From: Sulfurovum sp.
Lineage (GTDB): Bacteria; Campylobacterota; Campylobacteria; Campylobacterales; Sulfurovaceae
Direction of reading: 5' to 3'
DNA: 32,418 nucleotides
NCBI GenBank assembly: GCA_027071315.1
Contig: JALSUP010000077.1
Span: 1 to 32,418, forward strand
How positions within the stretch are numbered: the first letter of the stretch is position 1; every line of letters begins with the position of its first letter. Below are positions 5,249 to 32,418 of this stretch, piece after piece. The position numbers were made by a program, and so were the translations under genes. Under the pieces are notes generated by a model. The model was not told where the DNA came from and ran no database searches. It was given only the letters and a program-made list of their open reading frames with translations.

Positions 5249-6202
5249 TTAAACTCCTCCTGTTGTTTGACGATAGAAAAGAAAATCAGATTTTCCGTTT
5301 GCTTTTGCCTGATACATAGCAAAATCCGCCTGCTGGATGAGTTCTTCTCTGTCAGAATTTCCTTCTATGCACATACTGATACCGATGCTGCAGGATACCT
5401 GTAAATGATTTCCTTTAAAGATGATAGGTGTGGAGGCTGATTTTATGATCTTTCTCGCCAAAACCATTAAACATTCTTTGCTAGAGACATTTTCAACTAT
5501 GAGTGCAAATTCATCTCCACCGATACGGGCCAAAAAATCACTTTTTCGAATAGTACTTCTGATATTATCTACTACACTTACAAGTATGGCATCTCCCGCT
5601 TTGTGCCCATAACTGTCATTAATATTTTTGAAATTATCCAGATCTATAAAAAAAAGTGACATGTCATTCTTCTCTATTTTCGACAATGAAATCGCCATAT
5701 TGAGCTGTTGATTAAAAAGAAAACGGTTTGGAATGGATGTCAACGCATCATGATGTGCCAGTTCATACAGTTTTTCCTCTTTCGCTTTACGTACCATTTC
5801 TTTTGCACGCTGTGCATCGATCTTATTTTGCAGATTTTGGGCTATCAATTCAAGTCTTTCCATCAGCAGTTCAACATTGATGGGCTTGACCACAAAACCA
5901 TCTATACAGATATTAATGGCATCCAAAAGAATACCTCTTTCATCAAATGCCGATACAATGACAATCGGCCGGGAGCGGTCCATGTTTTTTATGACCATAG
6001 CCATATCCAGACCGCTCATAACAGGCATATTGATATCGGTAATGATGATATCCGGTTTTTTTTCTTTATAATATGCCAACCCTTCTTCTCCATTATATGC
6101 CTGATAAAAGACTTTAACCTCACTCTGCAGTATCAACTTCATTTCTTCCTGTGTATTTTTATCATCTTCAACATATAAAAGTGTAAAATTATGTAGAGCC
6201 AT
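5249..6202 (-). CDS. Response regulator diguanylate cyclase (REC-GGDEF)
   Basis: A 317-residue protein that should make cyclic di-GMP when phosphorylated. The N-terminal receiver domain has the acidic pair, the phosphoacceptor Asp56 in DIIITDINMPVMSG, and the conserved Lys106 in VVKP. A coiled linker (about residues 115-148) leads to a GGDEF domain with the intact active-site GGDEF at 228-232 and the inhibitory RxxD site (RKSD, 219-222) exactly five residues before it, so product feedback is expected. The stop codon TGA of the kinase gene overlaps this ATG (TGATG), and an AAAGGAT ribosome site precedes it. A GTG three bases upstream is also possible. The kinase encoded upstream is the likely partner. 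Confidence 0.93.
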   Translation of the reverse strand: MALHNFTLLYVEDDKNTQEEMKLILQSEVKVFYQAYNGEEGLAYYKEKKPDIIITDINMPVMSGLDMAMVIKNMDRSRPIVIVSAFDERGILLDAINICIDGFVVKPINVELLMERLELIAQNLQNKIDAQRAKEMVRKAKEEKLYELAHHDALTSIPNRFLFNQQLNMAISLSKIEKNDMSLFFIDLDNFKNINDSYGHKAGDAILVSVVDNIRSTIRKSDFLARIGGDEFALIVENVSSKECLMVLARKIIKSASTPIIFKGNHLQVSCSIGISMCIEGNSDREELIQQADFAMYQAKANGKSDFLFYRQTTGGV

Positions 6203-7860
6203 CACATATCCTTTGGCAGAAAAATAGTAAAACGTACCCCTTCCTGGGTATTAGAAACCGTTACATTCCCATGCATATGATCAATAATGATCATTTTGAC
6301 CATATAAAGCCCTAATCCGGTACCATTCTTATTCTCTTTTGTCGAGAAATAATGATCAAATATCTTATCAATGATGGCATCAGGTATACCCCCTGCATTG
6401 TCCTCTATACTGATAACAATATCATTCTCCGTTTCATCGATTACGATCTGAATATGTTTTTCCTCCCGGGATCTTTCTACCAACGCATCTTTTGCGTTGG
6501 AGACAAGGTTCAATATTGCCTGAAAAAACTCATTCGGATATCCTTTTGCATAATATATTTGACCGGCTTTGAATTCAATATGAATATTGTGCAGTGTAAA
6601 CATTGCATCCGTCATACTAAGGACTTTTTCTATCGTTTCATTGATACAAAAGCGCTTTTTCTCTTTTTCATCCCTAAAAAAGTTTCGAAAATCATCAATT
6701 GTTCCCGACATATGCTCTATCAGTTTTTGGGACTTCTGTTTAAAAAGGTCCACATCATCATCTTCCAGTGTGTCACGATGATACTTCATTACCAGTAATT
6801 GATTGACAAGTGAGAGATTATTCAGAAGTTGTCTCCACTGATGTGCTATCATTGCTATCATTTCTCCCATTTGTACCAAACGACTTTGCTGCAACACCCG
6901 TAGCTGCCGCTCTTCATGTTCATGGTATTCTCTGTTGATCATTTGGTATAGTTCGCTGTTCGTTCTCCTCCTCTCTTCAAAAAGAACACCTACGACCAAA
7001 ACCGTTAAAACATGAGTCAAAATAAAAAAATTCATATTGATGATATTGTTGATGTCTGAATTGAAAGAAAATACACCGATACCACGATCAGCAGCGTATA
7101 CCGATACGCTCGCAATTATGACAGCATACAATGTACCGTAGGACATTCCTTTGTGTGCAACGATCAAGGTGGCCAACGGTATGGTAAAGGTCATGAGCAC
7201 AGAGAGATTTTCAATATCAAGTTTTATTTCCAGAAGATAGATAAACAGTGTGAATCCGAGACCATATAAGAAGAATTCCAAAAGACGGATCTGTTTGTAA
7301 TTAATAAGAAAAAGAAGTGTGAACGGTGCAAAAAGAAGCTCTTCAACCATATTGTCGAGCCACCACGAATACAGTGATTTACTATATACAATATTTTCGT
7401 TGAACATATATTGCAGCAGCCATATTATATTACTCAAAAGCGCACTGAACGGTTGCAATATAATGACAATGATCAATATGAGTCCCAGAACATCTTCCAG
7501 ACGTATCAACCTTCTGTCCAGTTTATACTCATCGAACAGATGGACCGCGAGCACAGCTTCGAGCGAAACTATCATGGCTATTTCAACTGATGGCATCCAT
7601 CCAAAACCACTGTTCAATGCTGCGATAAAATGACCGATAAAGATGCCTGGCCAAATCCTTTTTCCAAAAAAAAGTGCTGCACCCAAAGCGATGCCATCGG
7701 CAGGGAAGACAACAAGATCTCCAAAATTATGTCTGCCGGAAAACACATCAGTCGTATTAACAGTAACTACATAGAATATGGCAATCACCAACACGGGAAT
7801 CATAGAGTAAAAAGGTTGGTCCTGCTCATGTTTCATTTTGTGTAGTAGTCTGGTCAACAT
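6202..7860 (-). CDS. MASE1-type membrane sensor histidine kinase
   Basis: A 552-residue membrane kinase. Residues 20-295 carry about eight hydrophobic segments with the FPADGIALGAALFFGKRIWP signature of MASE1, an integral membrane sensor domain whose ligand is largely unknown. A short coiled coil leads to the phosphoacceptor box with His340 in IAHQWRQLLNNLS, a version common in Campylobacterota. The ATPase domain follows, with the N box around Asn455 (NLVSNAKDAL), the G1 box DNAGGIP near 487 and the G2 box GTGLGLYM at 513-520. All catalytic motifs look intact. It overlaps the cyclase gene by a TGATG junction and is divergent from an OmpR-type regulator; either could be its phosphotransfer partner. 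Confidence 0.92.
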   Translation of the reverse strand: MLTRLLHKMKHEQDQPFYSMIPVLVIAIFYVVTVNTTDVFSGRHNFGDLVVFPADGIALGAALFFGKRIWPGIFIGHFIAALNSGFGWMPSVEIAMIVSLEAVLAVHLFDEYKLDRRLIRLEDVLGLILIIVIILQPFSALLSNIIWLLQYMFNENIVYSKSLYSWWLDNMVEELLFAPFTLLFLINYKQIRLLEFFLYGLGFTLFIYLLEIKLDIENLSVLMTFTIPLATLIVAHKGMSYGTLYAVIIASVSVYAADRGIGVFSFNSDINNIINMNFFILTHVLTVLVVGVLFEERRRTNSELYQMINREYHEHEERQLRVLQQSRLVQMGEMIAMIAHQWRQLLNNLSLVNQLLVMKYHRDTLEDDDVDLFKQKSQKLIEHMSGTIDDFRNFFRDEKEKKRFCINETIEKVLSMTDAMFTLHNIHIEFKAGQIYYAKGYPNEFFQAILNLVSNAKDALVERSREEKHIQIVIDETENDIVISIEDNAGGIPDAIIDKIFDHYFSTKENKNGTGLGLYMVKMIIIDHMHGNVTVSNTQEGVRFTIFLPKDM

Positions 7861-17060: not shown

Positions 17061-17324
17061 ATGGCAGAAAGAAGAAAATTTAAAAAGAGATTTTGTAAAT
17101 ATTGTGAGCAGAAAGTTGATTTTATCGACTATAAAGATTTGAATGGACTTAAATTCAGTTTAAGTGAAAGATTCAAGATCATGCCAAGAAGATTGACTGG
17201 TAACTGTAAGCGTCACCAGGAGCTTGTAACAGTAGCGATCAAAAGAGCAAGACAAACAGCGCTTATCCCATACATCGTGGATAGAAAAAATGTTGTCGAG
17301 TCTCCATTCGAGAACTTGAGATAG
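17061..17324 (+). CDS. rpsR: 30S ribosomal protein S18
   Basis: An 87-residue basic ribosomal protein, partner of S6 in the platform of the small subunit. The core includes KFCKYCEQK-like ([17 protein letters not shown]), [16 protein letters not shown] and [17 protein letters not shown], all typical of S18; the two Cys in the CKYC unit are kept. An AGGAGA ribosome site lies 11 bases downstream of the ssb stop. The length is normal. The end of the gene is followed by double-hairpin repeat C, which may double as the operon terminator. Confidence 0.97.
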
Positions 17325-17331
17325 TAATTCT

Positions 17332-17405
17332 CACGCACCAAATATAAGGTGCGTGATTACGCACCCTACGCGTATTTTTTAATGGTCGGCTGAAGCCAAC
17401 CCTAC
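17332..17405 (+). repeat. Hairpin repeat of the same family, copy C
   Basis: Three overlapping palindromes lie behind rpsR: CACGCACC/GGTGCGTG (17332-17355), GGTGCGT GATT ACGCACC (17348-17365) followed by CTACGCG, and GGTCGGCT GA AGCCAACC (17384-17401) followed by CTAC. The stem sequences differ from copies A, B and D, but the palindrome-plus-CCTACGCG ending is the same, so it is likely a diverged relative. It may end transcription of the rpsF operon. Confidence 0.65.
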
Positions 17406-17450
17406 AATACATTTCCCCTTCTTAACGTATACTCCCTCTACATTAACCTT

Positions 17451-17467
17451 TGTGTATAATTTACACA
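17451..17467 (+). promoter_or_regulatory. Palindromic promoter-like site
   Basis: TGTGTA at 17451-17456 and TACACA at 17462-17467 form a 6-bp palindrome with a 5-base spacer, and TATAAT at 17455-17460 overlaps it. It could be an operator-overlapped promoter reading toward the protease, upstream of the riboswitch, but no further evidence is visible. Confidence 0.3.
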
Positions 17468-17539
17468 CATCATTGTTTACGATTCTAAATATCATATTTT
17501 AAAATAAATTTTAAGTGACAATAGTATATATTAATATGT

Positions 17540-17545
17540 TATAAT
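17540..17545 (+). promoter_or_regulatory. -10 box for the riboswitch-protease transcript
   Basis: TATAAT at 17540-17545 within a very A/T-rich stretch would start transcription near 17552, just ahead of the riboswitch aptamer. GTGACA at 17515-17520 is a poor -35 at 19 bp spacing. Confidence 0.5.
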
Positions 17546-17561
17546 TTTTAATTTAAAATTA

Positions 17562-17650
17562 TACTCTGCAAAAAGCCAAACTATTTGCGAAAATAGGACG
17601 GAAAGCTATGGGTCTCAAGTAGATCGCCAGGCATACTCAGAAATTAGAGG
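17562..17650 (+). promoter_or_regulatory. GEMM (c-di-GMP-I type) riboswitch
   Basis: The leader of the protease gene carries the hallmarks of the GEMM-I aptamer. AAAGCCAAA is followed by a 6-bp stem CTATTT/AAATAG closed by a GCGA (GNRA) tetraloop at 17587-17590. Next comes GACGGAAAGC (17597-17606), the conserved tetraloop receptor (consensus GACGCAAAGCC), then GGTCT-caagt-AGATC and GCCAGGC, matching the second arm. By alignment with remembered Vibrio and Geobacter sequences, the position that separates c-di-GMP from cGAMP binders (G20 versus A20) is G here, favouring c-di-GMP. The expression platform is not clear: no strong terminator follows, and a AAGGGGAG ribosome site comes next. Confidence 0.7.
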
Positions 17651-17691
17651 TTTTTATTAAATAAATATTATATATAACAAGGGGAGATAAT

Positions 17692-19452
17692 ATGAAAAGA
17701 ATACATAAACTAACACTTGCATTATTGCCATTAATGATGGCTAATAATGTTTATGCAGCAGATAATGCTAACAACATACTTACCAGTATTGATAAGAAGA
17801 TTTCTGTAGAGACGCAACCTGTAACAGTGATGGTTCGATTAAAAAAAGGCTTTAAACCGTCTATTGTCTATAAGAATTTTTTAGCGCAAACAAAACTACA
17901 AGCAAATGATATTCAAAATGTTAGAAGATTCGCACTTTCATCACATAAGCCTGGTATTTTAGCATCAGGGAAAAAACATATTTTAGTGTTAGCATCTTCA
18001 ACACTTACTGAAGATGAATTAGTACAAGCTGCAAAAACAATAGAAGGTATGGACTTGGTTGAAGTTTCAAGACCTATACAGCTTGACAGTATTTCTACAA
18101 ATGCCACGCCTAATGACCCAAGTTATAGCAGTCTTTGGGGTATGAATAATGCACAAGATGCAGACATAGATGCGCCTGAAGCATGGGATGTTGGCACAGG
18201 TAGTAGAACCGTTGTTGTAGGTATTATTGATACAGGTATCAACTATACGCATCCTGATCTTATCAACAATATTTGGACTAACCCTGGTGAAATAGCAGGA
18301 AATGGTATTGATGATGATGGCAATGGATATATAGATGATATCCATGGTATAGATGTCGTAAATGGTGATACTGATCCTATGGATGATAATAGTCACGGGA
18401 GTCATTGTGCTGGTACTATTGGTGCTGAAGGAAACAATGGAGAAGGTGTTGTTGGGGTAAACTGGGTTGTCTCAATTGCTGGATGTAAATTTTTAAGTGA
18501 TGCTGGTTCAGGAGGCACAGCTGGTGCAGTTGAATGTGTGAATTATTTTAATGATTTAAAAACTAACTATGGTGTTAACATTGTAGTTACAAACAACTCA
18601 TGGGGTGGAGGAGGCTACTCTTCAATCCTTGAAGATGCCATTGCTGAAGGTGCAGCAGCAGATATTATCTTTGCTGCTGCGGCAGGAAATAGTAGTGATG
18701 ATAATGATGCCGGTGACTATTATCCTGCTAACTATGATGTAGATAGTATTATAACTGTTGCGGCCACTGACAGTAATGATCAATTGGCTTCATTTTCAAG
18801 TTATGGGGCAACAAGTGTTGAACTTGCAGCACCTGGTGTTAGTATTTACAGTACCGTACTTGGAACTTCATATGGTACTAAAAGTGGTACATCAATGGCG
18901 ACACCTCATGTTGCAGGTGCTGTTGCATTGATGGCTTCAGAATTTCCAGATGAAACTGCTACTGAGAGAAAAATGCGTATTTTAAATGCTGTTGATCGTC
19001 TTCCAAACTTAAATGGCGTAGTGATTACAGCAGGACGTCTAAACATTGCCAGAGCAATTGTTGGAGGGACAACTACACCACCTTATACATATACTATACT
19101 TGATATTGATGATGAATGGACAGCTGAGTCAGAGAATGCAAGACATAGAGATGGAAGATATGCAGCTTACAATACCTTTACTTTAACACAAGAGACAGAA
19201 GTAAGCATTGATTTAACTTCAAGTACTGATACGTATTTATATTTATTAGATAGTGCTGATAATATCATTGCACAAGATGATGATGGCGGAGCTAGTCTAA
19301 ATTCTAAAATTACAAGAACTTTAGAAGCAGGAACGTATACAACAGAATCTACTACTTATAATGCAAGTGCGACAGGTGTATTTAATCTTAAAGTCACAGG
19401 AGAACGTGACGTTACTATGAATCCATCTATTATTACTTACCTTTTATTTTAA
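17692..19452 (+). CDS. Secreted subtilisin-like serine protease (S8) with PPC-like domain
   Basis: A 586-residue exported protease. A signal peptide (cleavage after VYA, near residue 22) is followed by an inhibitor-like propeptide (about 38-130). The S8 domain (about 140-460) has the complete triad: Asp180 in VVGIIDTGINYTHPDL, His235 in DDNSHGSHCAG and Ser401 in SGTSMATPHVAG, with the oxyanion Asn333 in AAAGN. The C-terminal portion (about 475-575) resembles a bacterial pre-peptidase domain, with DTYLYLLDSADNIIAQDDDGG. It ends in a hydrophobic YLLF. The A/T content looks higher than in its neighbours. It stands alone behind a GEMM riboswitch, so secretion is likely tuned to c-di-GMP. Confidence 0.93.
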   Translation: MKRIHKLTLALLPLMMANNVYAADNANNILTSIDKKISVETQPVTVMVRLKKGFKPSIVYKNFLAQTKLQANDIQNVRRFALSSHKPGILASGKKHILVLASSTLTEDELVQAAKTIEGMDLVEVSRPIQLDSISTNATPNDPSYSSLWGMNNAQDADIDAPEAWDVGTGSRTVVVGIIDTGINYTHPDLINNIWTNPGEIAGNGIDDDGNGYIDDIHGIDVVNGDTDPMDDNSHGSHCAGTIGAEGNNGEGVVGVNWVVSIAGCKFLSDAGSGGTAGAVECVNYFNDLKTNYGVNIVVTNNSWGGGGYSSILEDAIAEGAAADIIFAAAAGNSSDDNDAGDYYPANYDVDSIITVAATDSNDQLASFSSYGATSVELAAPGVSIYSTVLGTSYGTKSGTSMATPHVAGAVALMASEFPDETATERKMRILNAVDRLPNLNGVVITAGRLNIARAIVGGTTTPPYTYTILDIDDEWTAESENARHRDGRYAAYNTFTLTQETEVSIDLTSSTDTYLYLLDSADNIIAQDDDGGASLNSKITRTLEAGTYTTESTTYNASATGVFNLKVTGERDVTMNPSIITYLLF

Positions 19453-19471: not shown

Positions 19472-19495
19472 ATTCCCTCTTTCTAGAGAGGGAAT
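19472..19495 (+). terminator. Hairpin behind the protease gene
   Basis: ATTCCCTCT at 19472-19480 pairs with AGAGGGAAT at 19487-19495 over a 6-base loop, 20 bp after the protease stop. The stem is strong but no T-run follows, so it may stabilise the message end rather than terminate alone. Confidence 0.5.
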
Positions 19496-21933: not shown

Positions 21934-24900
21934 TTACATTCTCAAAAGTTCCACAAGCTCTTTACCATCAAACTTCTCTTCCTTGTTTTCACCGTTCTTA
22001 TAAATGCCATCCTGTAAAGATTTTTTCTTTTCCTGAAGCTTAAGTATTTGCTCTTCGATGGAATTTTCTACTATAAGCTTATACACAAATACTGGTTTAT
22101 CCTGTCCTATACGATAGGCTCTGTCTGTGGCTTGGTTTTCTACTGCGGGGTTCCACCATGGGTCATAGTGTATGACCGTGTCCGCAGCTACCAGATTCAG
22201 ACCTACACCCCCTGCTTTGAGACTAATAAGAAAAATATTTGCATTACCCTTGCTAAACTTCTCTATGGCTTCTTCTCTTTTGCGTGTGGCACCGGTCAAC
22301 TTAGTATAGCTGTATTTTCTCTTTTTTATCTCCTCTTCAATGATACTAAGCATAGTAGTAAACTGTGAAAATACCAATACTTTTCTGCCCTCGCTCTGCA
22401 ACTCTTCCATCAATTCCAAAAAGAGTTCAAGTTTAGCTGATTCTTTTATATTTTTGGCTGCATCGAGCTGCAAGAGTTGAGGATGACAACATACTTGACG
22501 AAGCTTCAATAAGGCATCAAGTATAGTAATATGACTCCGTGAAAGCCCTTTACCTTTAATTGCCTCTCTTACTTTCTTTTCCATAGTGACACGTATATTT
22601 TCATACAGTGTCGCTTGTATTTTTGAAAATGTAGCTCTTTTAATAATCTCGGTTTTGCTTGGCAGTTCCAAAGCTACCTCATCTTTGGTTCTTCTGAGTA
22701 TGAAGGGTGCTACTTTTTTGTTTAGCAGTGCTCTTCTTGTCATATCATGCTCTTTTTCGATAGGGTTTTGATACAAACTTTTAAAGAGTTTAAGACTTTC
22801 TAAGAAACCAGGCATGACAAAGTCAAATATCGACCATAATTCTCCTAAGTGATTCTCTATAGGTGTACCGCTCAACGCCAGTTTATACTCTGAAGAAAAA
22901 GATTTGATTGCCACGGCCATTTTCGTTTTAGGATTTTTAATCTTTTGGGCTTCATCAAGTATAATATAGAGAAACTTCTCTGTCTTATATTTTTCTTCAT
23001 CTCTTTGTGCCAGCTGGTATGTCGTAAGTATAATATCATACGCACCTATTTTTGCAAATTTATCAGCTCTGTCTATACCATAAAGCTCTAGGAAACTAAG
23101 CTCTGGTGTAAACTTCTTTATCTCATTTTTCCAGTTTCCTATCAGTGAAGTCGGCATAATAATAAGTGTGGGGGCATTCAACTGATTCCTGCTTTTTAAA
23201 AGTTGTAAAAATGCTAAAGTTTGTACCGTTTTTCCCAGTCCCATATCATCTGCCAAAATACCTCCAAATCTAAAACTATACAGAAAATGTAACCAGTCAA
23301 GTCCGAACTGCTGATAGTCCCTCAACTCTGCATTGAGTGTTTTAGCAGGAGAGACAGACTCTATACCCTTAAAATTCTTAAGCTTGAGCGAAAGCTCTCT
23401 GAGCTCTTTCGCTCCTTTCCAGATGATGTCACTCTCTTCGTCCAATTCCAACAAATGTGCATCGTAAGGCTTGATCACAAGTGAATCACCCTCTTGTTTA
23501 TCAAAAAGTTCAAAGATTGTCCTCAAGATAGGTTTTATATCTTTAGATTCTATATGTAAAAACTTACCTTCTTCCATTTCAAAATTCAGTTTTTCAGGAA
23601 TCTCATCTATACTGTCATACTCTTTTAAAAGTGAACTGACTACAGGAAGAAGTTCTACTGACCTTCCTCCCACCTCTACAGAAAATGAAAGCTCAAACCA
23701 AGGATTTGTATCGCCTCCTTCAGATGCATCCACCACTACCGCATCAGCATACTCAAACGAAAAATTAAAACTCTCATTTATTTCAATCTCCCAACCAGCA
23801 TCACGTAAAGGTTCAATGTGATTCTCAATAAAATCACGCCAACGCTCGATGGCTTCCTGCATAGATGGATTTGCTAAACTAAGATAGGCTTGTAAAGCAT
23901 TTTCATAGGTAAATCCCAGTGATTCTATGGTCTCTGCATAACCCATCTCTTCTTGAATTGCTCTCACTATTTTAAGTGTCTTACTCTTTTGTGTCACCAT
24001 TTCATATTCACGTTGAGGGTAGATATTGACCTCGTAATCACCATACATCAAATGCAGCTCCATGACATGTACGGTTTGCAATACACTCTTTTTTCCAAAA
24101 AGGTAGAGGTAAGGCTTTGGTTTTACTTTAACCTCTTCAATAATAAAAGATTGAGGCAGAGGAAAACTCACATCTGGTAATTTCTCTACTACTTCCTGTG
24201 TTACCTTCGTGACTGTCTCCATCGACATTTCAGGTGCATGTAACATGCAAATAAGTCCCTCTTTATCGTACTCTGTATCCACATCATAGAGTCTATTGGT
24301 ATCGCTATTGATGCACATAGGAGGTATGGTATTTATTATAAGTTCCTCATTCTTGTGCAGATTTGAGATCAAATGTCCCTTACCCTCTTTTTCCATCCAT
24401 TCAAAAGTAAGTTTTTTGGATACATCTGCATAACAAAGCGGTACAGAACTGTCACGATAATAACATTTACCAGTTTTTACAAGTTCTTTAAGCATCAGTG
24501 CACCATATTCATCTATGAATTTAAATTCACGATGGTATGCCCCAACAGATGTATTATTAAGTTTAGCAATAAGTCTTCTGTCTTCATCTGTTAAATATGG
24601 ATAATAATATGTTTTATCATAGTAATACATCATATTTTCATTCGATACCTTAGCACCTTTTGAGATGCTGCCATTTTTTAAAAACTTCGCTTTACACAAA
24701 TCAAAATCATCAGTCCCATCCCGAAAAAGCCTGATAATCATAAGCTGTTCCTGCGCTTCATCCTGAAACGATTCTACTTTAGGCTGGTGTATTTTCATAA
24801 ATTTTTCAAGCCATTCTTTAGAGCTATCCACATCCCTTATCGTTGCATTGTAGGACATCATTTTAAATAAAACAGCAACCACATGTTTGCAGTCATAGCC

Positions 24901-25152
24901 AACAGGACAGGAGCATCTACCTTCTATAGTCAAATCATCATAGTTTGAAAACTCTATATATTGTTCATACTGACGAGTACCACTTACCTTTGAAACAACA
25001 GATGCACTATATAAAGTCTCTTCATTGAATCTATAATTTTTCACTCTGTTCTGTGCATAATATTGATAACCCTTGGTATATGTTTTGGCATCAAAATTTT
25101 CAAGTAAATCTCTTTTTGTTAATCTAAATGTATCTATCGTTTTAGTTTGCAG
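21934..25152 (-). CDS. SNF2-family helicase with SWIM zinc finger
   Basis: A roughly 1,072-residue ATP-dependent DNA translocase of the Swi2/Snf2 group. The N-terminus holds a SWIM zinc finger (CSC, then CKH; residues 80-90 in the numbering used here). The helicase core contains the Walker A ADDMGLGKTVQTL, the DEAQ box, SGTPIENHLGELWSIFDF, and the motif VI QATDRAYRIGQ. The frame has no ATG before residue 36; the first ordinary start is GTG at 25044, yet the residues before it (FDAKTYTKGYQYYAQNRVKN) look like the conserved SWIM-protein N-terminus. A CTG at 25150-25152 has AAGGAG exactly six bases before it and an in-frame stop just upstream, so I place the start there. It lies at the end of the xerH operon. 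Confidence 0.85.
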   Translation of the reverse strand: MQTKTIDTFRLTKRDLLENFDAKTYTKGYQYYAQNRVKNYRFNEETLYSASVVSKVSGTRQYEQYIEFSNYDDLTIEGRCSCPVGYDCKHVVAVLFKMMSYNATIRDVDSSKEWLEKFMKIHQPKVESFQDEAQEQLMIIRLFRDGTDDFDLCKAKFLKNGSISKGAKVSNENMMYYYDKTYYYPYLTDEDRRLIAKLNNTSVGAYHREFKFIDEYGALMLKELVKTGKCYYRDSSVPLCYADVSKKLTFEWMEKEGKGHLISNLHKNEELIINTIPPMCINSDTNRLYDVDTEYDKEGLICMLHAPEMSMETVTKVTQEVVEKLPDVSFPLPQSFIIEEVKVKPKPYLYLFGKKSVLQTVHVMELHLMYGDYEVNIYPQREYEMVTQKSKTLKIVRAIQEEMGYAETIESLGFTYENALQAYLSLANPSMQEAIERWRDFIENHIEPLRDAGWEIEINESFNFSFEYADAVVVDASEGGDTNPWFELSFSVEVGGRSVELLPVVSSLLKEYDSIDEIPEKLNFEMEEGKFLHIESKDIKPILRTIFELFDKQEGDSLVIKPYDAHLLELDEESDIIWKGAKELRELSLKLKNFKGIESVSPAKTLNAELRDYQQFGLDWLHFLYSFRFGGILADDMGLGKTVQTLAFLQLLKSRNQLNAPTLIIMPTSLIGNWKNEIKKFTPELSFLELYGIDRADKFAKIGAYDIILTTYQLAQRDEEKYKTEKFLYIILDEAQKIKNPKTKMAVAIKSFSSEYKLALSGTPIENHLGELWSIFDFVMPGFLESLKLFKSLYQNPIEKEHDMTRRALLNKKVAPFILRRTKDEVALELPSKTEIIKRATFSKIQATLYENIRVTMEKKVREAIKGKGLSRSHITILDALLKLRQVCCHPQLLQLDAAKNIKESAKLELFLELMEELQSEGRKVLVFSQFTTMLSIIEEEIKKRKYSYTKLTGATRKREEAIEKFSKGNANIFLISLKAGGVGLNLVAADTVIHYDPWWNPAVENQATDRAYRIGQDKPVFVYKLIVENSIEEQILKLQEKKKSLQDGIYKNGENKEEKFDGKELVELLRM

Positions 25153-30528: not shown

Positions 30529-32418
30529 TTAGTTGTTCTTCTTAACTGGCACTATAGAATCTTTAATCTGATGCAGATCTTCTATCTTCTCCCTATAAGG
30601 TATTTTTTCTACTTCAACAAAGGCTGTTTTCTCTTCTACAATTTCTAAAAAATGTTTTTTCATCTCTTTCACTTCCACATGCAGGTAAGCATTTTTGGAA
30701 AGAAGCAAGTCATCGAGTTTCGCAAAGTCGAAATTCATTTTCAACTGCTCCAGTATCTCCTCTTCTGTCGGTTCACGGATCGTGAATCTGGAAGGATCTT
30801 GTAAATGGACTGCTTCAGAGTCAAGAATTTTCTTTTCTATCTGATCCATACTCACCTGCACCGTCTGTATAAGATTCGATGAGAGTGCTCCATTGAGATA
30901 AGCACTCTGTTTATTGAACGATTCAATGTGTCCCAAAGTAGCCGTATGAAAGGTGTTCAAAATATTTTCATAGACTTTGGAAGCAAAGCGTTTCACCTTT
31001 GAAAACTCAAGGTCAGAAGCAATCTCCCTGTTTTTAAAGAGGAGCAGGTATTTGTGCTGCCAGGAGATGACATCACTCTGTACTTCAGTATAAAGTGCTT
31101 TAAAATCTCTGTTGATTTTTCCTTCAAAACGCTCCAAGTACTGCATCACCGACTTAATACTGCCTTCCACACGCTGCTCATTGTAAAAGAGAATATCCAG
31201 TACGGCATTTTTATCAACCCTGAAACTCTCAAAAGCGTGTTTCTCGATCTTCTCCTGTTTCAGGAATGAGGAAGTACGCTCTTTGTAATGCACCACACTC
31301 TGGAGTGAAATATGCCCGTAGATCTCCTGTGCCACATTTTGGAAGATCATCTCTAAACGTTTATGAATCTCTTGCAGGTCTGAACTGTACTGCCGATCCA
31401 GTGCATCCAGTCTTTTGGTCAATTTAGTCTCTGAGTCTTCTAAAATACGGCTAAGTGCATCATATACCCCGCACATGGTTTCATAAGAGTTGATCAGAAT
31501 ATCACAAATATTTTTAAGATCATTTTTGATTCGAAACGCTTTCATCTCAGTGGCAGAGGGACGCATCACCTCTTCAATATAGGTTATAACCTGATTGATA
31601 TTGGACGCTTCAAGCTTTGCTTCAAGTGCCGCTGTATCTTGAGAACGTATGCGTTCTACTTCTTCTTTGAAGTCTGCAAAATCATCAGAGAAAAATTGTA
31701 AAGAGTCACAGTTCGGATTTTCATTGAGCCCTTTTCTAAAGGCTTTGATCATGTCGTTCATTGCACTGTCTATGAGAGTTGCAGGTTCCAGACATCGTGC
31801 ATCGAGTGCCATCTTTGCAGAGACAGGAATGACTTTTGAAAAATAGTCAGCAAATTTATTTTCGATGTACGCCAACGTGGTCGCTATTTGTGTTTCGGAA
31901 AACTTATCTTTTTGATTCAAGAGGCACAATGTCTTGGTTTTAAACGCTGACATAGTGCGTTCCAAAATCTCCTCTTCACTTCGCTTGCCTGCATTGTCTA
32001 TCATCGTCAGCCAAATAATGCCGCCCACATCCTGAAATACTTTTTGCGTACTTTCCGTGTCTTGCTGTGATTGAGAATTGAGCCCAGGAGTATCCACAAA
32101 GGAGAGCTCTTTTAAAATCTCTGAAGGGACATAGATAGAGAGGTATTTAATATTGTCCATTGTACTTTTTCTCTGATCGGAAAAGGTGGCAATGTGTTCT
32201 ATGGGAAAGTACTCATGGACCCCGGATTTGTAGGTGACCCTGAGTTTATGCGCTTCGCCGTAGTTGATGTAAATGACTTTTGAAGTGACCGGTGTAATAC
32301 CTGTGGGTAAGATGTCTTTGGAAAGAAGGGCATTGAGAAAGGTGGATTTTCCAGAAGAGAATTGCCCAACAATGGCCACTTCCATTGGGTAGACAGCACG
32401 TTTTATCTGTTTATTGAG
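30529..32418 (-). CDS. Dynamin-like GTPase, N-terminus outside the window
   Basis: A partial large GTPase, at least 629 residues here. The G1 loop is GQFSSGKST, the threonine of G2 is in TGITPVTS, G3 is DTPGL, and NQKD fits G4. Long helical and coiled regions follow (about residues 250-600 of the portion seen), as in bacterial dynamin-like proteins, which remodel membranes. The frame runs open to the window end (codons giving LNKQIKRAVYP before the internal Met), so the protein starts further upstream. In Campylobacter two such genes sit in tandem; a partner may lie just outside. Confidence 0.88.
   Translation of the reverse strand, partial: LNKQIKRAVYPMEVAIVGQFSSGKSTFLNALLSKDILPTGITPVTSKVIYINYGEAHKLRVTYKSGVHEYFPIEHIATFSDQRKSTMDNIKYLSIYVPSEILKELSFVDTPGLNSQSQQDTESTQKVFQDVGGIIWLTMIDNAGKRSEEEILERTMSAFKTKTLCLLNQKDKFSETQIATTLAYIENKFADYFSKVIPVSAKMALDARCLEPATLIDSAMNDMIKAFRKGLNENPNCDSLQFFSDDFADFKEEVERIRSQDTAALEAKLEASNINQVITYIEEVMRPSATEMKAFRIKNDLKNICDILINSYETMCGVYDALSRILEDSETKLTKRLDALDRQYSSDLQEIHKRLEMIFQNVAQEIYGHISLQSVVHYKERTSSFLKQEKIEKHAFESFRVDKNAVLDILFYNEQRVEGSIKSVMQYLERFEGKINRDFKALYTEVQSDVISWQHKYLLLFKNREIASDLEFSKVKRFASKVYENILNTFHTATLGHIESFNKQSAYLNGALSSNLIQTVQVSMDQIEKKILDSEAVHLQDPSRFTIREPTEEEILEQLKMNFDFAKLDDLLLSKNAYLHVEVKEMKKHFLEIVEEKTAFVEVEKIPYREKIEDLHQIKDSIVPVKKNN

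Follow-up and report, generated by a model that had tools for sequence, protein, structure and literature searches.

A c-di-GMP-I riboswitch aptamer, one of ten in its genome, precedes the gene of a secreted subtilase in Sulfurovum

Aptamers of class I c-di-GMP riboswitches (GEMM-I; Rfam RF01051), among them Vc2 of Vibrio cholerae and Cd1 of C. difficile, have two arms and a GNRA loop, and in Vc2 the base G20 selects between c-di-GMP and cGAMP (PMC9262584). PPEP-1, a secreted protease of C. difficile, is under the control of a riboswitch of this class, in the opposite sense to the adhesins that are its substrates (PMC11477304, PMC6366702). GEMM-Ib riboswitches of Geobacter respond to cGAMP, which is made by Hypr GGDEF enzymes, and G. 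sulfurreducens has 17 GEMM-I elements (PMC8835794). Further points of comparison are the c-di-GMP-I-GGC variant (RF03167) and, among secreted S8 proteases, deseasin MCP-01 (PDB 3vv3).

We analysed a leader in a 32,418-nucleotide stretch of Sulfurovum sp. DNA (assembly GCA_027071315.1, contig JALSUP010000077.1), hereafter the window. We consider it highly probable that a genuine c-di-GMP-I aptamer, of which the genome has ten, forms this leader and that the mRNA which it opens is monocistronic and encodes a secreted, deseasin-like subtilase; we infer that the aptamer binds c-di-GMP and that binding changes protease production. This would tie a secreted protease to an attachment-governing signal in the Campylobacterota, for which hardly any riboswitches are mentioned in the literature searched. 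A sequence-only reading of the same DNA had presented such an exoprotease as a direct link between lifestyle switching and secretion in this lineage; the novelty is weaker than that implied, since a c-di-GMP-I riboswitch on a secreted protease is already known from C. difficile (PMC11477304). The arrangement is of a known kind, apparently not yet reported from this lineage; text searches for riboswitches with Sulfurovum, and for c-di-GMP riboswitches with Epsilonproteobacteria, found no paper on the subject. The clostridial counterpart, PPEP-1/ZmpI (CD2830) of Clostridioides difficile, likewise has its gene behind a class I c-di-GMP riboswitch, but is a Gram-positive metalloprotease made at low c-di-GMP and with known adhesin substrates, whereas the window encodes a serine protease.

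The aptamer and its parts are as follows.

17565–17640, + strand: c-di-GMP-I (GEMM-I) riboswitch aptamer, above the RF01051 gathering score
17565–17568, + strand: predicted 5′ strand of P1, UCUG, pairing with CAGA at 17638–17641, by sequence reading
17575, + strand: G, equivalent to Vc2 G20 (c-di-GMP versus cGAMP selectivity), by covariance-model and genus alignments
17581–17596, + strand: 6-bp hairpin, P1b in one naming scheme and P2 of the crystal structures, by reading, Rfam and alignment
17602, + strand: A, equivalent to Vc2 A47, in all 118 collected elements
17604–17634, + strand: second arm (P3), with CU:AG receptor pairs for the GNRA loop, by Rfam match and alignments
17633, + strand: one-base bulge A at the base of P3, beside the predicted ligand site, by alignments
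17636, + strand: C, the presumed Vc2 C92 equivalent, in 116 of 118 elements

A scan of the whole window against Rfam (cmscan) aligned all model positions, 1–87, of RF01051 to 17565–17640 on the + strand, scoring 46.6 bits where the gathering score is 35, with an E value of 2.9e-6 against 4227 families; this was the only match at gathering level in the window. The two-arm layout proposed from the letters was found in place throughout: the 6-bp stem (17581–17586 with 17591–17596) closed by the GCGA loop (17587–17590), then GACGGAAAGC at 17597–17606, and the second arm closing with GCCAGGC at 17626–17632. A covariance model built for the genus gives 75.7 bits (E 4e-21), a score that is not independent because the window copy is among the 31 training rows of that model. 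Compared with RF01051, the window copy shares the full-length match, both arms, the GNRA loop and the equivalents of G20, A47 and C92; its junction pairs are C-G/C-G (GCC...GG) against G-C/C-G, its loop is GCGA with a CU:AG receptor against the consensus GAAA, and the bulge A17633 is extra. By general GNRA rules, the GCGA loop presumably matches the CU:AG receptor, and docking of the two is predicted. We take C17636 to be the C92 equivalent from the alignment together with the Vc2 structure.

The arms are conserved in relatives, as the same reading had required of a real aptamer: an alignment of 31 sequences supports 20 stem pairs, and 13 of them show compensatory, two-sided changes. With the genus model we collected 118 further elements, the window copy being the 119th, and their core bases are nearly invariant (G in 117, A in 118 and C in 116 at the equivalents of positions 20, 47 and 92). 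Their hairpin loops are mostly GUGA (83) or GCGA (18), and the CU:AG receptor in P3 is present in 115 of the 118, so that the genus set as a whole departs in this loop and receptor from the GAAA type of the Rfam consensus. Pairing like that of P1 in the window copy can also form in paralogues (UCUGC/GCAGA in L006, UCUG/CAGA in L008). The bare aptamer fold is no more stable than that of shuffled sequence (z 0.34); in aptamers of this kind, much of the stability is tertiary. This modest folding energy is all that speaks for a likeness by chance, a reading of negligible probability that is refuted by the E value against 4227 families, the nine paralogues in the genome and the genus-wide covariation.

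Ten copies in the genome exceed the RF01051 cut-off, and the window copy ranks seventh among them by bit score. The claim that the aptamer stands alone thus applies to the protease transcript and fails for the genome. Within the genome, the window copy has close paralogues, 78–89% identical over 81–119 nt, before thiE and before the genes of two outer-membrane barrel proteins. The thiE copy (locus L012, contig C120, 3330–3416) lies between apparent thiG and thiE (TMP-TENI) genes, an odd target within a thiamine operon. Another match in the genome (L016, contig C202, 5785–5880, − strand) is weaker, at 58.3 bits with the genus model; it is directed into the 3′ end of an opposite-strand gene, with no gene close downstream, and may be a relic or act in antisense as a riboswitch.

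The window copy also has blemishes. The A17633 insertion occurs in none of the other 118 elements, a C-U mismatch adjoins P1, and, lying near the ligand site, the bulge may weaken binding. A decayed, ligand-blind copy of once-working c-di-GMP-I riboswitches, with the bulge and the mismatch as the cause, is the reading favoured by the uniqueness of the bulge and by the seventh place of 46.6 bits among the ten copies. We regard such decay as unlikely, given that the core bases and every other helix are intact, and that sibling copies with still lower scores (39–43 bits, contigs C148 and C4) still precede genes for exported proteins.

The reading of a working c-di-GMP-I aptamer raises the question of ligand supply; two adjoining genes in the window are listed here.

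5249–6205, − strand: response regulator with a GGDEF domain, by domain search and motif reading
6202–7860, − strand: MASE1 sensor histidine kinase, adjoining the GGDEF gene, by domain search

The first protein has a GGDEF motif, an upstream RKSD I-site and GHKAGD, as in enzymes that make c-di-GMP, and is a possible source of the ligand. The sequence-only reading had noted a diguanylate cyclase operon in the same window; the receiver-GGDEF gene is indeed there, but it belongs to a different operon, some 10 kb from the leader, and this neighbourhood is a coincidence rather than evidence. The genome encodes five clear GGDEF domains, all with GH..GD, and three EAL domains; the Hypr serine (GH..GS) was found in none of the five, in a search for cGAMP synthases that covered GGDEF domains. 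As had been read from the letters, the selectivity position holds G (G17575), not the A of GEMM-Ib, and at the 47-equivalent the window copy has A17602 in place of the G of RF03167 (GACGCGAA in the model consensus). From this consensus, the letters GGC in c-di-GMP-I-GGC appear to denote bases 20, 47 and 92, with 47 as the middle letter. Taken together, the G, A and C core bases, the GH..GD domains lacking the Hypr serine and the EAL domains make c-di-GMP the expected ligand.

Sensing of another dinucleotide, either 3′,3′-cGAMP or the ligand of the c-di-GMP-I-GGC variant, is very improbable on these grounds. Under relaxed thresholds, RF03167 matches the window copy over the full model and slightly outscores its parent (51.7 against 46.6 bits), which is what this alternative has in its favour; the score nonetheless falls below the RF03167 gathering score of 59, and the model has G where all 118 elements have A. 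The Geobacter GEMM-Ib riboswitches share the scaffold and the high copy number per genome with the elements described here but sense cGAMP, whereas here G stands at position 20 and none of the clear GGDEF domains of the genome is of the Hypr type. One element in a tandem pair (L098, 2380–2471, − strand) is the sole one in which the 20-equivalent is A and the 92-equivalent is T, and is a candidate for an altered ligand or for decay.

The transcription unit around the aptamer comprises the following features.

17358–17374, + strand: intrinsic-terminator-like hairpin with a T-run, 3′ of rpsF-ssb-rpsR, by terminator search
17537–17545, + strand: candidate extended −10 promoter TGTTATAAT, with a predicted RNA start at ~17552, just 5′ of the aptamer, by sequence reading
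17680–17686, + strand: Shine-Dalgarno sequence AGGGGAG, by sequence reading
17692–19452, + strand: secreted subtilase, 586 aa, deseasin MCP-01-like, by Pfam, PDB 3vv3 and triad motifs
19472–19495, + strand: putative inverted repeat ATTCCCTCT...AGAGGGAAT, in the gap that separates the protease gene from its convergent neighbour, by sequence reading

The gene order in the window is rnr-holA-rpsF-ssb-rpsR, an order known from Helicobacter that points to the Campylobacterota, and the hairpin at 17358–17374 is the only terminator-like site in 17300–17750 (mean of 0.2 in shuffled sequences). Together with the convergent downstream gene, this upstream hairpin suggests that the protease unit is probably monocistronic, and the inverted repeat at 19472–19495 is the probable transcript end. 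The promoter is a call by reading, because TATAAT-like sites upstream of the genus aptamers are barely above the shuffled level (105 of 117 against a mean of 90, a slight excess). Elsewhere in the window, the − strand encodes a SNF2/SWIM helicase of 1036 aa (21934–25044) and a dynamin-family protein of 618 aa (30529–32385).

The subtilase ATG, at 17692, follows the aptamer end by 51 nt. The protein has a signal peptide at aa 1–22 (MKRIHKLTLALLPLMMANNVYA, called by reading), a propeptide region, a catalytic domain at about aa 139–457 and a weakly matched PPC domain at aa 495–550. The complete catalytic residues ascribed to it are borne out by the Peptidase_S8 match (Pfam, E 1.4e-50) and by an intact triad of D180, H235 and S401 in DTGI, HGSHCAG and GTSMATPH motifs. 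Its best structural match, PDB 3vv3, covers aa 139–464 with 380 bits (E 1.8e-112), against 142 bits for the next-best structure, so that the catalytic domain is shared with deseasin MCP-01. In MCP-01, a PPC domain also follows the catalytic domain, and a PKD domain is present; Pfam found no PKD domain in the window protein.

Of 78 genus genomes, about eleven encode homologues with 49–55% identity, and no aptamer was found before them in the upstream stretches read. A contig search returned only distant subtilase relatives, which belong to other phyla and of which none has a convincing aptamer. A second type of subtilase, with about 40% identity along part of the protein, follows tandem aptamers in three genomes (G027, G075 and G100). 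Because this independent type also has aptamers, secreted subtilases probably came under such aptamers on two or more occasions.

How the aptamer might act on the protease gene was approached by folding, in which one further element emerged.

17558–17567, + strand: possible anti-Shine-Dalgarno strand AUUAUaCUCU, complementary to 17683–17691 and overlapping the P1 5′ strand, from the minimum-energy fold

In the minimum-energy fold of the leader (−21.7 kcal/mol), both arms are formed and 17558–17567 pairs with 17683–17691, whereas forcing P1 gives −14.3 kcal/mol, a cost of about 7 kcal/mol that ligand binding could pay in this model. The masked Shine-Dalgarno sequence weakly suggests a translational ON switch, which we hold to be the most likely mechanism, at about an even chance. 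Without ligand, AUUAUaCUCU would lie on the Shine-Dalgarno region and block initiation; with ligand bound, UCU would be drawn into P1 (17565–17568 with 17638–17641) and the ribosome site freed, so that a rise of c-di-GMP in attached cells would raise protease export. Statistical comparisons count against this model. Against swapped leaders, the Shine-Dalgarno helix of the window ranks at 0.075, which is not significant, and 3 of 80 leaders reach 0.05 or less; an anti-Shine-Dalgarno strand in P1 or P3 was not enriched over swapped leaders in the 80. In constrained folding, ribosome-site access was unchanged in the window leader (0.39 both ways) and had no common direction across 79 leaders. Orthologous leaders (PAS, LysM, DUF4382, PilJ, CAP and barrel genes) revealed no shared platform, their stems mostly ending at the aptamer.

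Terminator control of the protease gene was ruled out: a search of 104 leaders returned 24 weak candidates, several of them outside the leader, and none in the window leader. In 65 genus leaders, the linkers between aptamer and Shine-Dalgarno sequence are C-skewed and richer in pyrimidines than control upstream regions (0.552 against 0.485, p 4e-8); Shine-Dalgarno masking or Rho are guesses at the reason. Such linkers would also fit a functional c-di-GMP-I riboswitch of the opposite sign, in which c-di-GMP lowers the protease and the enzyme is made on leaving the surface. That is the direction of the closest precedent, PPEP-1 in C. difficile, and we consider an OFF switch a real possibility, if short of an even chance. 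It fits poorly with a window leader that has no terminator and whose linker is A/T rather than C/T and has no match to the Shine-Dalgarno sequence; in a relative (L146), moreover, a terminator-like hairpin overlaps P3, a layout that would make for an ON switch. What the protease is for depends on the sign of control, ON implying feeding while attached and OFF release from surfaces.

Across a sample of 60 genomes, own genome included, 37 carry RF01051 elements: 35 of 37 in the genus, with 1–21 copies each, and 2 of 23 outside it (34 of 36 genus relatives, also with 1–21 copies, when the own genome is left out). In a wider sample of the order, 27 of 160 genomes and 11 of 62 genera are carriers, and confinement to one genus was ruled out, as ten other genera carry 1–7 copies per genome.

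For 101 aptamers, we took the first downstream gene; these genes fall into 46 clusters. A signal-peptide-like start was found in 70 of the 101 genes against 56 of 196 other ORFs from those loci (odds ratio 5.6, p 2e-11), the call being our own simple heuristic and homologous genes not being independent in the test. The families include cadherin-like/Calx-beta adhesins, lectins, FN3 lipoproteins, DUF4382 proteins and OmpA-type barrels, as well as LysM-NlpC/P60, CAP and PilJ proteins, PAS sensors, an ABC exporter and subtilases. GEMM was named for 'environment, membranes and motility', and this regulon-like tie to exported proteins is in line with that pattern. A broader, tentative and on present evidence rather unlikely reading is that the genus has a dispersed c-di-GMP riboswitch regulon for exports, of about 20 aptamers per genome at most, acting mostly without terminators, through pyrimidine-rich linkers and an undescribed expression platform. 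If true, its exports would comprise adhesins, lectins, barrels and proteases, joined in relatives by a lasso-peptide cluster. The genus set offers more than 100 natural variants for learning how genes are controlled without an obvious terminator.

The newer observation may be that, in relatives, riboswitches also flank lasso-peptide clusters; our literature search found no paper joining lasso peptide, riboswitch and c-di-GMP. Two loci, L189 (G029:C1:786000-805000) and L190 (G027:C6:394500-412000), hold lasso-peptide-type clusters with c-di-GMP-I aptamers, comprising a B2 protein over the cut-off, cyclase-like, PqqD-like and HprK-like proteins and an ABC exporter. The aptamers there precede the ABC exporter, an ORF of 54 aa (L024/L189) that carries the leader-like motif YxxPxLxxxG and, as tandem copies, the subtilase (L190).
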